A stretch of 64,000 nt of DNA from Marivivens sp. LCG002 (GTDB lineage: Bacteria > Pseudomonadota > Alphaproteobacteria > Rhodobacterales > Rhodobacteraceae), in assembly GCF_030264275.1 (NCBI RefSeq), contig NZ_CP127165.1:1910001-1974000 (forward strand), in the 5' to 3' direction. The position numbers were made by a program, and so were the translations under genes. Positions 59,557 to 64,000 of the stretch are shown here, in pieces. The notes under the pieces were generated by a model. It did not search any database, was not told where the DNA came from, and saw nothing but the letters and a program-made list of their open reading frames with translations. The first letter of the stretch is position 1. Each line of letters begins with the position of its first letter.

Positions 59557-59590
59557 TCGTTCCTCCGCACTGCCAGAACTACCACTTGCA

Positions 59591-59619
59591 CAGGGCCCGC
59601 TTTCAAAGCGTCGGCCCTG
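59591..59619 (+). terminator. Terminator-like hairpin after cspA
   Basis: CAGGGCC pairs with GGCCCTG around an inner CGCTTT/AAAGCG stem, followed by CGCCCTTTTC. It lies 34 bases past the cspA stop. The T run is short and offset, so the call is moderate. Confidence 0.6.
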
Positions 59620-59708
59620 CGCCCTTTTCGGGAGCCTATGTTTCTGGCTTGGACTCGGGCGCGGCTCGGCCTACAAATACCCCGACACTTGGATTGGGGG
59701 ACCCTCGC

Positions 59709-60542
59709 GTGCAGCAGTATCACGACGCCTTGCGCACTGTTCTTGAAAAGGGCGACGTTTCAACGGATCGGACTGGAACGGGAACCGTCTCATACTTCGG
59801 GCTACAGGCACGTTATCCGCTCTCGGACGGCTTTCCTTTGGTCACGACCAAAAAGCTGCACCTCAAATCCATCATCCATGAGCTGCTCTGGTTCCTCGCA
59901 GGGGACACCAACATCAAATATCTCAAGGATAACGGGGTTTCGATCTGGGACGAATGGGCCGATGAAAACGGCGATCTCGGCCCCGTCTATGGCCGCCAGT
60001 GGCGCGATTTCCCCCAGCTCATCGAAGCAGGAAAAGACGCAAGCGGTCATCCGATCTTTCATCGTGGCAGCGTGGACCAGATCAAGACCCTCGTCGAGAC
60101 GATCAAGCAAAGTCCCGACAGCCGCCGTCTTGTGGTTTCGGCGTGGAATCCGGGTGAAGTCAAGGACATGGCACTCCCGCCTTGCCACACGCTCTGGCAG
60201 GTCAAGATCAACGGCGGTAAACTCCACCTTCAGCTTTATCAACGCTCGGCTGATATGTTCCTCGGGGTCCCGTTCAACATCGCCTCCTATGCGCTCTTGC
60301 TGAAAATGCTCGCCCATGTAACGGGCTATGAAGAGGGTGACTTCGTCCACTCGATCGGCGACGCCCATATCTATTCCAACCATATGGAGCAGGTGAAGTT
60401 GCAGCTTTCGCGCACGCCCAAGCCGCTCCCTGAGGTGCGGATCAAACGCAAGGTGACATCGCTCTTCGACTTCACTTTCGATGACTTCGAAGTCATCGGT
60501 TATGATCCCGACCCAAGCATCAAAGCACCGGTGGCCGTATGA
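59709..60542 (+). CDS. thyA: Thymidylate synthase
   Basis: A 277-residue enzyme turning dUMP to dTMP with methylene-THF. The catalytic Cys is in LPPCHTLWQ near 155; [11 protein letters not shown] near 20 and [19 protein letters not shown] are conserved. GTG 59709 gives the normal start [15 protein letters not shown], and GGGGGA precedes it, so longer in-frame starts are not needed. The stop overlaps the folA ATG. Confidence 0.95.
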
Positions 60543-61021
60543 TCTCTCTTGTTGTTGCCCGAGCCCGCAATGGAGCCATCGGACGTGAAAACACGATCCC
60601 GTGGCATGCGCCCGAAGATCTCAAGTTTTTTCAACGCGAAACCTCGGGCGGCGTCATCATCATGGGCCGCAACACATGGGACAGCCTCCCCTTCAAGCCG
60701 CTCAAGAACCGCGTAAACCTTGTGGTGTCGTCGAAAGGCGTGCCCGAAGCGGAATTCGTCTATCCCTCGCTCGAGGCGGCCATCGCCGCCGCCCACGCAA
60801 TGGGCCATCGGCGGATTTACGGCATCGGGGGCGCGGGTATCTATCGTGAGCTCTTGCCCAAAGCAGACCGGCTTTTGATTACCGAAGTGGATATGGACGT
60901 GCCTGATGCAGACACGTTCTTTCCCGAAATCGAGGTCGCAGACTGGCACGAAGTGGGACGGCACACCCTGCGCGACGAGGGCCCGCGCTGCGAGCTTGTC
61001 GAACTCCTCCGTAGGGTCTGA
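60539..61021 (+). CDS. folA: Dihydrofolate reductase
   Basis: A 160-residue [31 protein letters not shown] in the N-terminal part (referred to here by its parts [12 protein letters not shown] and EDLKFF), [17 protein letters not shown] and [13 protein letters not shown] are diagnostic. It regenerates tetrahydrofolate after ThyA. The ATG overlaps the thyA stop (ATGA), the classic thyA-folA pair. Confidence 0.96.
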
Positions 61022-61109
61022 CCCCTATATCTAGGCGATTAGTGAGATTTATTTCCACATAGCGTAGTTTTTTGGGGTTGCAGGGGCGATTCTGCTGCCA
61101 GCTCTGGTT

Positions 61110-61122
61110 GACAGACTCTGTC
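61110..61122. promoter_or_regulatory. Inverted repeat and promoter-like box upstream of the lipoprotein gene
   Basis: GACAGACTCTGTC is a perfect 6+1+6 inverted repeat. It overlaps TTGACA at 61108-61113, a consensus -35 element; a weak AAATGT lies 17 bases later. This is the best promoter candidate for the TbpB-like/Slam-like pair, and the repeat could be its operator. Confidence 0.45.
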
Positions 61123-61168
61123 ACTCGGGCAAATGTGCCTCAACCCAAACGGATACAGAAACATACCT

Positions 61169-62218
61169 ATGTATAGTCGCATCATTTGCCTTGCCGCAGC
61201 GCTTCCTTTATTTGCAGCGGGCTGCACCGCGACCAATCCGCTTGCGGACGATCTTGCCAGCTTGCTCAACACGGGTGGTGAGCCATCTGCAAATGGCGAC
61301 AGCGATGGGATTACCATATCGGGAACGACGCTCTCACCTGCAACCACAAATGCGAATGGTGTCGAGCAGATCATCCGCTACGAAGCGTCGGACAGCGGCT
61401 TTGGCGGCCTGTCTCGCGGGTTTACCTATGTGTCGGTAAACGACACCATCGTGATCGACAACATCGCGTTTGACGGTGGAAACGTCTACACTCGCGGGAA
61501 CCCTGTAAGTCAGGTGAACAATTACGCCGTCTACGAGGGTGATGCGACTGCACTTGATCCATTGACCGGCAAGACAATCCCCCAGGTCACGAATTACCGC
61601 GCCCTCATTGGCTTTAGCACCAACCGAGTAGATGGAGCCCCGCGCTCGGCCTTTGCGATCAACCGCACCGGCGGTTACGTCCAGTATGGCTTTGGCGGGT
61701 TTGTGTATCAACGCGTTGGCGGCGTGACCATGCCGACAAGCGGTCAAGCCGTGTTCGAAGGGGATTATGCGGGGATGCGCGTCTTTGACACGCGTGGCGG
61801 TCTCGAGTTTACCGAAGGTGATATTCAGCTCGTTGTCGACTTCAATGACTTCAACAGCGGCGCAACCATCAACGGCGAGATCACCAACCGTCGCGCCTTT
61901 GATATTGACGGTAACCTCATTACACTCGGCGGGACCGGCAACCTCGTATTGCCGGACTTGCGCATCACAGTTGCAAAAGATGACGTAGGAATTGCAGCAA
62001 ACGGTGAAGTCTCGGGAACGATCGGTTCGGTGAGTATTTCCACGGGCGGCGCAGCGCAGGCCTATGAAACCGGCAAGTATTATGCGATCCTTTCGGGCGA
62101 CGCCACAAGCGCGGCGGACGGTGGGGAAATCGTCGGGATTGTGGTTGTTGAATCCACCGACCCGCGCTTTACTGGGGTAAAGGCACAAGAAACGGGCGGC
62201 TTTATCGCCTATCGTTAA
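61169..62218 (+). CDS. TbpB-like (transferrin-binding-protein-like) surface lipoprotein
   Basis: A 349-residue lipoprotein. The start ATG 61169 gives MYSRIICLAAALPLFAAGC, with the lipobox FAAGC and lipid Cys19; ATG 61133 would weaken the signal. Disordered residues 20-60 form a likely surface tether. The C-terminal half has GFGGFVYQRVGG, GQAVFEGDYAGMRV, FTEGDIQLVVDFNDF and INGEITNRRAF, which match the eight-stranded barrel of the TbpB/factor-H-binding-like family. It lies 12 bases before the Slam-like gene, a known cargo-transporter arrangement. The ligand is unknown. Confidence 0.72.
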   Translation: MYSRIICLAAALPLFAAGCTATNPLADDLASLLNTGGEPSANGDSDGITISGTTLSPATTNANGVEQIIRYEASDSGFGGLSRGFTYVSVNDTIVIDNIAFDGGNVYTRGNPVSQVNNYAVYEGDATALDPLTGKTIPQVTNYRALIGFSTNRVDGAPRSAFAINRTGGYVQYGFGGFVYQRVGGVTMPTSGQAVFEGDYAGMRVFDTRGGLEFTEGDIQLVVDFNDFNSGATINGEITNRRAFDIDGNLITLGGTGNLVLPDLRITVAKDDVGIAANGEVSGTIGSVSISTGGAAQAYETGKYYAILSGDATSAADGGEIVGIVVVESTDPRFTGVKAQETGGFIAYR

Positions 62219-62230
62219 GATCGGCGGGCT

Positions 62231-63622
62231 ATGGTTTTTCGTTCACTCTTTCTGGCATTTTTATGCGCGGCATCGTCGGGCTTTGCCCAAAGCGTTGAGT
62301 TCACGCCCGAAGAAGCAAGAGAAGTCGCCATCGCAGCGGTCAACGCAGGTGATTTTGCAACCGCTCATCAGCTGTCCGACGTCCTGCTACAGCGCAATGC
62401 CAAAGACGTTTCCGCTCTGATCGTGCGTGCACGTGTCGCGATTGCCTTGGGGGATTTCGAGGACGCCGAAACCCTTGCGGGCAGCGCGTTTTCCCTCTCG
62501 AGCAATGAACATGTCCGCTTTGCGGCGGCGCGTGTCGTCGCCCTCGCTCATGCCAATCAAAACGAATTCACCCGTGCGCAATTCTGGCTCCGTCGCGCAA
62601 GGCAGGTCGCGCCCGATGCCGATGCCCGCGCACTTGCCGCGCAGGATTTCAGGATCGTGGCCGCGCGCAATCCGCTCTCTGTCTCGTTCAGTTTCGGGAT
62701 CAGCCCGAGCAATAACGTGAACAACGGGAGTTCCAATTCTCGGGTGGTTGCGCCCGATTGGGCCAATTTTCTCAAATCGTTTCTGGGGAGCAGTGCGGTC
62801 GTCGGGGATGTTGTCGATCTCTCTGCCGGATCGCAGGCCATCAAAGGCTTCAATATCCAAGCGGGGCTCAGCCTTGGCTATACTCTCGGCCAAACGCCGA
62901 CCTCACGCACGACGCTCACCTTTGGGGCAAGCGCAAATCAGGTGGTCTTTACCGCAGCAGAGAAGGCCGCAAATCCTACCATCGATCCTCGGGCCTATTC
63001 GACGCAAAGTCTGAGCTTCGGTCTTGATCGCGTGTGGGCCGCCGATGATGGCGGTTACTATGCCATCTCGCCCGAAGTCTCGCAGGTCTGGTATGGCGGC
63101 TCGATCTTGCAACAGAGCCTTGCCCTCGACGCCAAGCGCTTTTGGGCGATTGACGAGCGCAACGGTTTTACCCTCCTGCCGCGGTATGAATTGACGCGAT
63201 ATCCCGCAAGTTCGGACCAAAGCCAGGCATTTGGCGTTTCCGCCCAATGGCAACATGTGCTCGAAACGGGTGGCAGGCTCGGGTTTGATGTCACTACGAG
63301 CAAAGTCAGCGCAAAAGATCCTCTCAAAGCGAGCTTTGGCGGTGGTATTTCGGTTTCGTATTCCCACCCCGCTCCGGTCTTTGGCCTCGATATTTCGGGA
63401 ACGGTGGGGCAAAGCTGGCGTCGGTTCGAAGGCTGGAACGGCGGCGCAGGCACACGTTCGGACGCGACTTTCAACATCGGGCTTGATGTCGCCGCCCCCA
63501 AAGCCGAGATTTACGGCTTTGTCCCTGTCATGAGCCTGAGCGGAAGCGCGACGCAAAGCGACCGCGATCTTTACGACAAGACGGTCACGAGCATCGGTCT
63601 CAATTTCCGATCCGCTTTCTAA
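62231..63622 (+). CDS. Slam-like outer-membrane protein (TPR plus DUF560 barrel)
   Basis: A 463-residue protein with signal peptide (FRSLFLAFLCAASSGFA, cleavage before QSV). Residues 24-150 are TPR-like helical repeats (AVNAGDFATAHQLSDVLLQ and AIALGDFEDAETLAGSAFSL). From about 150 (SVSFSFGISPSNNVNN) to the end, alternating aromatic strands ending in LNFRSAF indicate an outer-membrane barrel. This matches surface lipoprotein assembly modulators. The upstream lipoprotein would be its cargo. Confidence 0.78.
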   Translation: MVFRSLFLAFLCAASSGFAQSVEFTPEEAREVAIAAVNAGDFATAHQLSDVLLQRNAKDVSALIVRARVAIALGDFEDAETLAGSAFSLSSNEHVRFAAARVVALAHANQNEFTRAQFWLRRARQVAPDADARALAAQDFRIVAARNPLSVSFSFGISPSNNVNNGSSNSRVVAPDWANFLKSFLGSSAVVGDVVDLSAGSQAIKGFNIQAGLSLGYTLGQTPTSRTTLTFGASANQVVFTAAEKAANPTIDPRAYSTQSLSFGLDRVWAADDGGYYAISPEVSQVWYGGSILQQSLALDAKRFWAIDERNGFTLLPRYELTRYPASSDQSQAFGVSAQWQHVLETGGRLGFDVTTSKVSAKDPLKASFGGGISVSYSHPAPVFGLDISGTVGQSWRRFEGWNGGAGTRSDATFNIGLDVAAPKAEIYGFVPVMSLSGSATQSDRDLYDKTVTSIGLNFRSAF

Positions 63623-63682: not shown

Positions 63683-64000
63683 ATGCCTTTGAAATACCTT
63701 CACACCATGGTGCGTGTGCTCGATCTTGAGAAATCCATCGCGTTTTACGAATTGCTCGGCCTGCGCGAAACCCGCCGCTCGGAAAGCGAAGGCGGACGTT
63801 TCACGCTCGTTTTCATGGCGCCTCCGGGTCAGGAGGAATGCCCTGTCGAGCTAACCTATAACTGGGATGGGGATGACGGGCTACCTTCTGACAGCCGTCA
63901 TTTTGGACACCTCGCCTATGCGGTCGACAACATCTATGAGACCTGTCAGCACCTGATGGATAACGGTGTCACGATCAACCGACCGCCGCGTGATGGCCGG
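63683..64000 (+). CDS. gloA: Lactoylglutathione lyase (glyoxalase I), cut by the window edge
   Basis: An open frame of 106 residues runs off the right edge. YLHTMVRVLDLEKSIAFYE at the start has the metal-ligand His; CPVELTYNWD carries the next ligand Glu; FGHLAYAVDNIYETCQHL holds another His. These match glyoxalase I, which detoxifies methylglyoxal with glutathione. The full protein is usually about 130-145 residues, so 25-40 residues are missing. The ribosome binding site is in a hairpin. Confidence 0.92.
   Translation, partial: MPLKYLHTMVRVLDLEKSIAFYELLGLRETRRSESEGGRFTLVFMAPPGQEECPVELTYNWDGDDGLPSDSRHFGHLAYAVDNIYETCQHLMDNGVTINRPPRDGR

Follow-up and report, generated by a model that had tools for sequence, protein, structure and literature searches.

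Near the end of a 64,000-nucleotide stretch of DNA from Marivivens sp. LCG002 (hereafter the window), a lipoprotein gene and the transporter gene that follows it very probably form a unit for surface display, of the Slam or type 11 secretion (T11SS) kind and made up of two genes. The case draws on the families of the two proteins, their adjacency, the shared history of both genes, an empty form of their chromosomal site and one cargo replacement. In the mechanism we propose, the lipoprotein would be exported, lipidated at Cys19 and taken to the outer membrane. The transporter, with periplasmic TPRs and a membrane-embedded SlipAM barrel, would recognise the C-terminal TbpB-type barrel of its cargo and then hand the lipoprotein over to the cell surface, where homology predicts it to be exposed. 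Ligand contact would probably fall to the upstream half of its single lobe, and the ligand may vary between species. The unit, placed at a fixed chromosomal site by a thymidylate synthase and a glyoxalase gene, would evolve as a cassette.

The locus is of a kind already known, and probably belongs to the T11SS loci that Grossman et al. 2025 (PMC12282271) call "marine cluster 3", the assignment being by locus content, not by network clustering. As in the available sections of that paper, it consists of a transporter, an adjoining lipoprotein with a C-terminal barrel, and glyoxalase and thymidylate synthase neighbours. Unlike most relatives, it has ThyA and dihydrofolate reductase (DHFR) in place of ThyX, and the genome has no DUF1194 match (E<=0.001). 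For T11SS in Rhodobacteraceae and Slam surface lipoproteins in Roseobacter, the same paper was the literature found; in its available sections, all seven verified T11SS transporters fall in cluster 1, outside marine cluster 3. Added here are the presence of a cargo gene upstream of 112 of 123 transporters, the apparent passenger character of the neighbour genes, the agreement of cargo and transporter trees, and one replacement of the cargo.

Table 1. Features of the cargo-transporter locus and its flanks (window coordinates).
Feature	Position	Strand	Basis
Cargo lipoprotein gene, 349 aa, predicted single-lobe Slam/T11SS-type cargo	61169..62218	+	ORF, lipobox, family-profile match to window protein and relatives
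Predicted lipoprotein signal peptide and Cys19 (lipobox LFAAGC)	61169..61225	+	read from sequence; Cys19 invariant in 63-sequence alignment with starts chosen by lipobox
C-terminal TbpB_B_D-like barrel domain, residues 168-349	61670..62215	+	hhalign, 63-sequence profile vs 21 TbpB_B_D domains
Putative Slam/T11SS outer-membrane translocator gene, 463 aa	62231..63622	+	ORF; hhalign vs 27 SlipAM proteins; PF04575 in family members
Predicted periplasmic TPR region, about residues 33-132	62327..62626	+	Pfam TPR_19, ANAPC3, TPR_MalT matches
Predicted SlipAM-type outer-membrane barrel, about residues 150-463	62678..63619	+	barrel part alone vs SlipAM proteins
Flank: thymidylate synthase ThyA and dihydrofolate reductase	59586..61021	+	Pfam PF00303, PF00186
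Flank: glyoxalase family (gloA-like) gene, cut by window end	63683..64000	+	Pfam PF00903; full gene in L001

The listed lipoprotein ORF begins at 61133, and a start at 61169 sets the lipobox at the right distance, with Cys19 at 61223-61225 and the stop codon at 62216-62218. The transporter ATG lies 12 bases after this stop and opens a protein with a hydrophobic, signal-like N-terminal stretch (read by eye). The preliminary description of this DNA had reported just these parts, a lipobox lipoprotein followed after 12 bases by a protein with a signal peptide, TPRs and a barrel, and each was found in its place, the two barrels through profile homology; its host is indeed an alphaproteobacterium, of the genus Marivivens. 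The description had also called the unit self-contained, which holds as far as the searches went. The window genome (3.16 Mb, 2 contigs, 99.96% complete) has one match to the transporter profile (best 6 of 15 candidates scored; a single-protein search also gives one) and one to the cargo profile (best 9 of 11 candidates scored).

For the window lipoprotein itself, Pfam and NCBIfam searches return nothing at E<=10. Its family profile aligns with 21 TbpB_B_D domains over residues 168-349 (hhalign E 1.4e-8, probability 95.5%; all hhalign E-values given here are those of single comparisons), against E 0.76 for the reversed profile, and this profile match bears out the TbpB-like barrel domain named in the preliminary description. 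The N-terminal half gives no match to TbpB_B_D (E 0.54), and a second barrel lobe was not seen. One relative, L017, exceeds the TbpB_B_D cut-off as a single sequence (30.4 vs 26 bits), and at E<=0.01 only 3 of the 63 cargo family sequences match TbpB_B_D and 11 match FHBP_C, which would explain why domain-based searches miss this family. Cys19, within the lipobox read by eye in the window protein, aligns in all 63 sequences, partly by construction. With its lipobox, its C-terminal barrel of the TbpB_B_D type and the SlipAM gene beside it, the window lipoprotein has the predicted features of a Slam-dependent, T11SS-type cargo. It differs from TbpB proper, the transferrin-binding protein, in having 349 residues and one barrel lobe where TbpB has two, and in that the 7 neighbour genes scanned include no TonB-dependent receptor.

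In the window transporter, TPR_19 is matched above its cut-off (26.6 bits, cut-off 25), and SlipAM (PF04575, DUF560) reaches 18.8 bits over residues 407-463, short of its cut-off of 22. In the transporter family, 58 of the 62 members match SlipAM at E<=0.01 (and, in a first alignment, 14 of 14 at E<=1), and the family profile matches 27 SlipAM proteins drawn from other Pseudomonadota genomes with a profile-profile E of 9e-45 (hhalign). The Slam-like identity that the preliminary description had proposed is thus recovered at the level of the family. Both parts contribute: the barrel alone gives E 8e-36 (reversed control 0.017) and the TPR part E 8.5e-8. A whole-genome SlipAM search returned nothing at E<=0.001 and carries low weight, its control being silent in all 14 genomes; a PDB sequence search with the transporter profile returned TPR matches alone, and the PDB sequence searches otherwise and PHROGs gave nothing useful. 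The SlipAM barrel and N-terminal TPRs place the transporter, on sequence grounds, among the Slam / T11SS outer-membrane proteins, for which cargo translocation would be the expected function. It is highly improbable that the protein is instead a PgaA-like polysaccharide exporter or a general assembly factor with the lipoprotein as its partner. The NCBIfam PgaA model does match it weakly (16.2 bits, cut-off 366.65), but over residues 20-125 alone, which are the TPRs, whereas the barrel by itself matches SlipAM proteins, and no polysaccharide gene occurs among the 7 neighbour genes scanned.

Slam proteins carry TPRs ahead of a SlipAM barrel. This domain order is given in part in the available text of PMC5449769, and the translocation of TbpB by Slam1, with Skp as the holdase, has been reconstituted (PMC9090332, available sections). 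The window pair resembles the Slam1-TbpB system of Neisseria and Moraxella in having a SlipAM translocator with TPRs and a predicted lipidated cargo with a TbpB-type barrel. It differs in its one-lobed cargo, in having no TonB receptor among the neighbour genes scanned, and in that TbpB transport by Slam1 has been reconstituted whereas the function of the window pair is predicted from its genes. Another counterpart is found in Xenorhabdus, where the transporter of the lipoprotein NilC is NilB. As described in the available text of PMC9100927, a DUF560 transporter there serves a surface-exposed lipoprotein cargo; the likeness is one of description, not of sequence, and the NilC system, unlike the window pair, has a role in host colonisation.

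The pairing of cargo and transporter recurs across the family, too regularly for a chance arrangement. Both profiles were searched in 246 family genomes, with at most 6 (transporter) and 9 (cargo) candidates scored per genome. Strong transporter matches were those at E<=5.5e-68, a line set by us that lets through some matches truncated by contig ends and leaves out weaker matches and fragments beneath it. Among the matches listed, 123 strong transporter matches occur in 120 genomes, and in the 112 cases named above a cargo match lies upstream on the same strand, as in the window, the distance between match ends being -7 to 410 bases (median 44); the adjacency pointed out in the preliminary description is common to most of the sample. 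Conserved transporter motifs served to choose a further set of 80 named loci, and a cargo match is present in 77 of them, one of which (L130) is in pieces. The available sections of PMC12282271 give 31 predicted cargo ORFs for 145 cluster 3 transporters (0.21 each) and name three options for the missing cargo: encoded elsewhere, under the similarity threshold, or lost. Whether barrel cargo had been lost in marine cluster 3 was a question left open in 2025; most transporters sampled here have cargo next door, and it is the second of these options, cargo falling under sequence thresholds, that the present counts bear out. One example is Pseudooceanicola marinus LMG 23705, given as lacking cargo in the available text of PMC12282271. 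Its locus (L069), with the gene order ThyX, cargo, transporter, glyoxalase, contains an intact cargo ORF of 342 aa, located 139 bases ahead of where the transporter likely starts.

Eleven of the 123 strong transporters have no adjacent cargo match, two of them being adjoined by another lipoprotein: in G106 (same locus as L065) an upstream lipoprotein ORF scores marginally against the cargo profile (10.1 bits, E 0.012), and beside G149:C65 a lipoprotein ORF lies on the opposite strand. ThyX-like ORFs directly adjoin the transporter in G090 and G224 (by eye). Surrounding sequence was read for ten of the eleven; in the other, G193, the transporter begins 146 bases from a contig end. The three named loci without cargo are L066, which is cut off by a contig end at its start, L126, in which ThyX is the immediate neighbour of the transporter, and L065, with the marginally scoring lipoprotein ORF described for G106. 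Lipoprotein ORFs of other kinds beside the transporter (L065:4241-4924, same as L140; L142:2036-2857) may be alternative or diverged cargo. In a Marivivens metagenome assembly (L130:1795-4450) both genes are broken up into several reading frames, by decay or assembly error. Cargo-profile matches away from any listed transporter, some of them partial, occur in G270, G251, G089, G152 and G179 and are possible orphan cargo, and another genome of the same family (G374) has one SlipAM match to 11 for TbpB_B_D, which may mean that many cargo proteins share a transporter.

The chromosomal site of the pair is conserved. Of 54 named loci with full flanks, 48 have ThyX, 4 have ThyA with DHFR, 49 have glyoxalase, 41 have DUF1194 and 40 have MarR. 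The window ThyA and DHFR genes lie on the strand of the pair; in the four ThyA-bearing relatives they lie on the other strand. Among the matches listed, 89 of the 246 genomes have no transporter match. The empty site was sampled in 18 of 20 listed genomes without a transporter, 17 of which (G086 aside) again had none among the matches listed when the search was repeated and a larger number of candidates scored. In 14 of these 18, thyX and gloA are direct neighbours in divergent orientation, 75-1022 bases apart, compared with gaps of 2570 and 2584 bases in two genomes with the pair; three of the remaining four have no ThyX match, and one has thyX and gloA on different contigs. In 12 of the 18, DUF1194 shares the strand of gloA and is less than 1 kb away from it. 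Because thyX and gloA adjoin, and DUF1194 stays near gloA, where there is no transporter, the neighbour genes look like passengers of the site. The association of these transporters with one-carbon metabolism and DUF1194, as reported, is best explained by a common site, which accounts more simply for the folate, glyoxalase and DUF1194 genes found near them.

These observations bear on the proposal that the true substrate of the transporter is DUF1194 or another protein, and that the lipoprotein is a periplasmic accessory, which we consider very unlikely. In the available sections of PMC12282271, DUF1194 is found near 102 of the 145 cluster 3 transporters, compared with 31 cargo ORFs. In our 246 genomes its link to the transporter is weak (present in 102 of 120 genomes with a strong transporter match and 93 of 126 without; odds ratio 2.0, p 0.04). 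Besides persisting by gloA at transporter-less sites, DUF1194 is absent (E<=0.001) from 16 of the 112 genomes with the pair, that of the window included. In the trees of 41 loci in which DUF1194 served as a faster control, the partial correlation is 0.745 between cargo and transporter (0 of 1000 permutations as high), 0.205 between DUF1194 and transporter (14 of 1000) and 0.005 between DUF1194 and cargo (451 of 1000). DUF1194 is not favoured as an alternative substrate at the window locus, although the residual correlation of 0.205 with the transporter stays.

The lipoprotein, as the preferred substrate, also agrees with the transporter in the larger comparison of tree distances, which used the 50 of 80 named loci with a usable cargo start, a long enough ThyX and a glyoxalase. 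The correlation is 0.64 between cargo and transporter, 0.14 between cargo and ThyX, 0.23 between cargo and glyoxalase, and 0.34 between the transporter and either flanking protein. Given ThyX and GloA, the cargo-transporter partial correlation is 0.62, a value reached in 0 of 2000 permutations. Such agreement fits a matched pair or a pair that moved together, the two not being separated by it.

Within the genus, the pair is far more divergent than its flank, identities between the window and six other members being 29-35% for the transporter and 26-47% for the cargo, vs 78-88% for glyoxalase. In two Marivivens species (G006 and G005), the mature cargo alone has been replaced. Synonymous divergence between them (dS, from our own Nei-Gojobori script) is 0.35 for ThyX, 0.37 for the transporter, 0.24 for glyoxalase and 0.29 for DUF1194, vs 2.2 for the cargo, which is 55% identical. 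Measured in 200-base windows, DNA identity stays at 84-99% along the locus but drops to 47-62% over the mature cargo, and windows straddling the cargo ends have 71-72%. The only other low values are in the final windows, as the alignment ends. Both the lipobox and the linker that follows it are almost unchanged. This was the one clean cargo replacement among eight close pairs (ThyX dS<=0.39; three share members). In L105 and L122 both genes of the unit have raised dS (0.86 and 0.75, vs 0.25-0.28 in ThyX, GloA and DUF1194), and an exchange of the whole pair is possible. L099 and L106 were dropped as a replacement case: the background is also distant (GloA dS 1.27, DUF1194 dS 3.02) and the ThyX piece is unusually close. 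The other five close pairs have no jump (cargo dS 0.14-0.53 vs ThyX 0.11-0.27). Further close relatives were sought in another genus, that of G253, which has no genus mates among the matches listed.

On the strength of the G006/G005 replacement and the empty site, we tentatively read the locus as a surface-diversity cassette of marine Rhodobacteraceae, a reading that is quite possible and to which we do not fully commit. The site between thymidylate synthase and gloA would be either empty or occupied by the pair, and the displayed part of the cargo, sometimes the whole pair, would be exchanged between species by recombination while the signal peptide, linker and transporter stay. If so, the displayed protein would face a variable partner (phage, grazer, competitor or algal host) and not a constant nutrient, and the one-carbon metabolism and DUF1194 links would come from passengers of the site. 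The two Marivivens species, with different cargo and a transporter that is 90% identical, provide a natural test of what the transporter recognises.

A variable partner would fit the divergence of the cargo better than iron or haem. The preliminary description had suggested an iron or haem carrier as one possible ligand, a suggestion that found no support here. We judge it unlikely that the lipoprotein, in the manner of a haemophilin or TbpB, binds haem or an iron carrier and feeds a TonB receptor. Verified T11SS cargo of cluster 1 does include haemophores and metal-binding proteins (PMC12282271, available sections), but the same sections describe TonB receptors as rare, and haem and iron uptake as lacking, near cluster 3. 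None of the 7 neighbour genes scanned in the window genome encodes a TonB receptor. Histidine is absent from the window lipoprotein, with no His column above 45% in the 63 family sequences, and its two cysteines are Cys7 in the signal peptide and Cys19, the predicted lipid-bearing residue. In favour of iron, a 15-base perfect palindrome of the form TGA-N9-TCA (TGACAGACTCTGTCA, 61109-61123) lies 60 bases before the lipoprotein start, and presumably resembles an iron-responsive box. Yet it is not conserved, the window being its sole carrier among 76 upstream regions (the window and 75 relatives, the full form occurring in 0 of the 75). An iron box was dropped as an explanation: by our arithmetic, chance gives about five TGA-N9-TCA and about one perfect 7-pair palindrome in the same amount of sequence. 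The TGA-N9-TCA form was found in 5 of the 75 relatives (300 upstream bases each), one of which (L088) carries it near the same place with 5 of 7 pairs.
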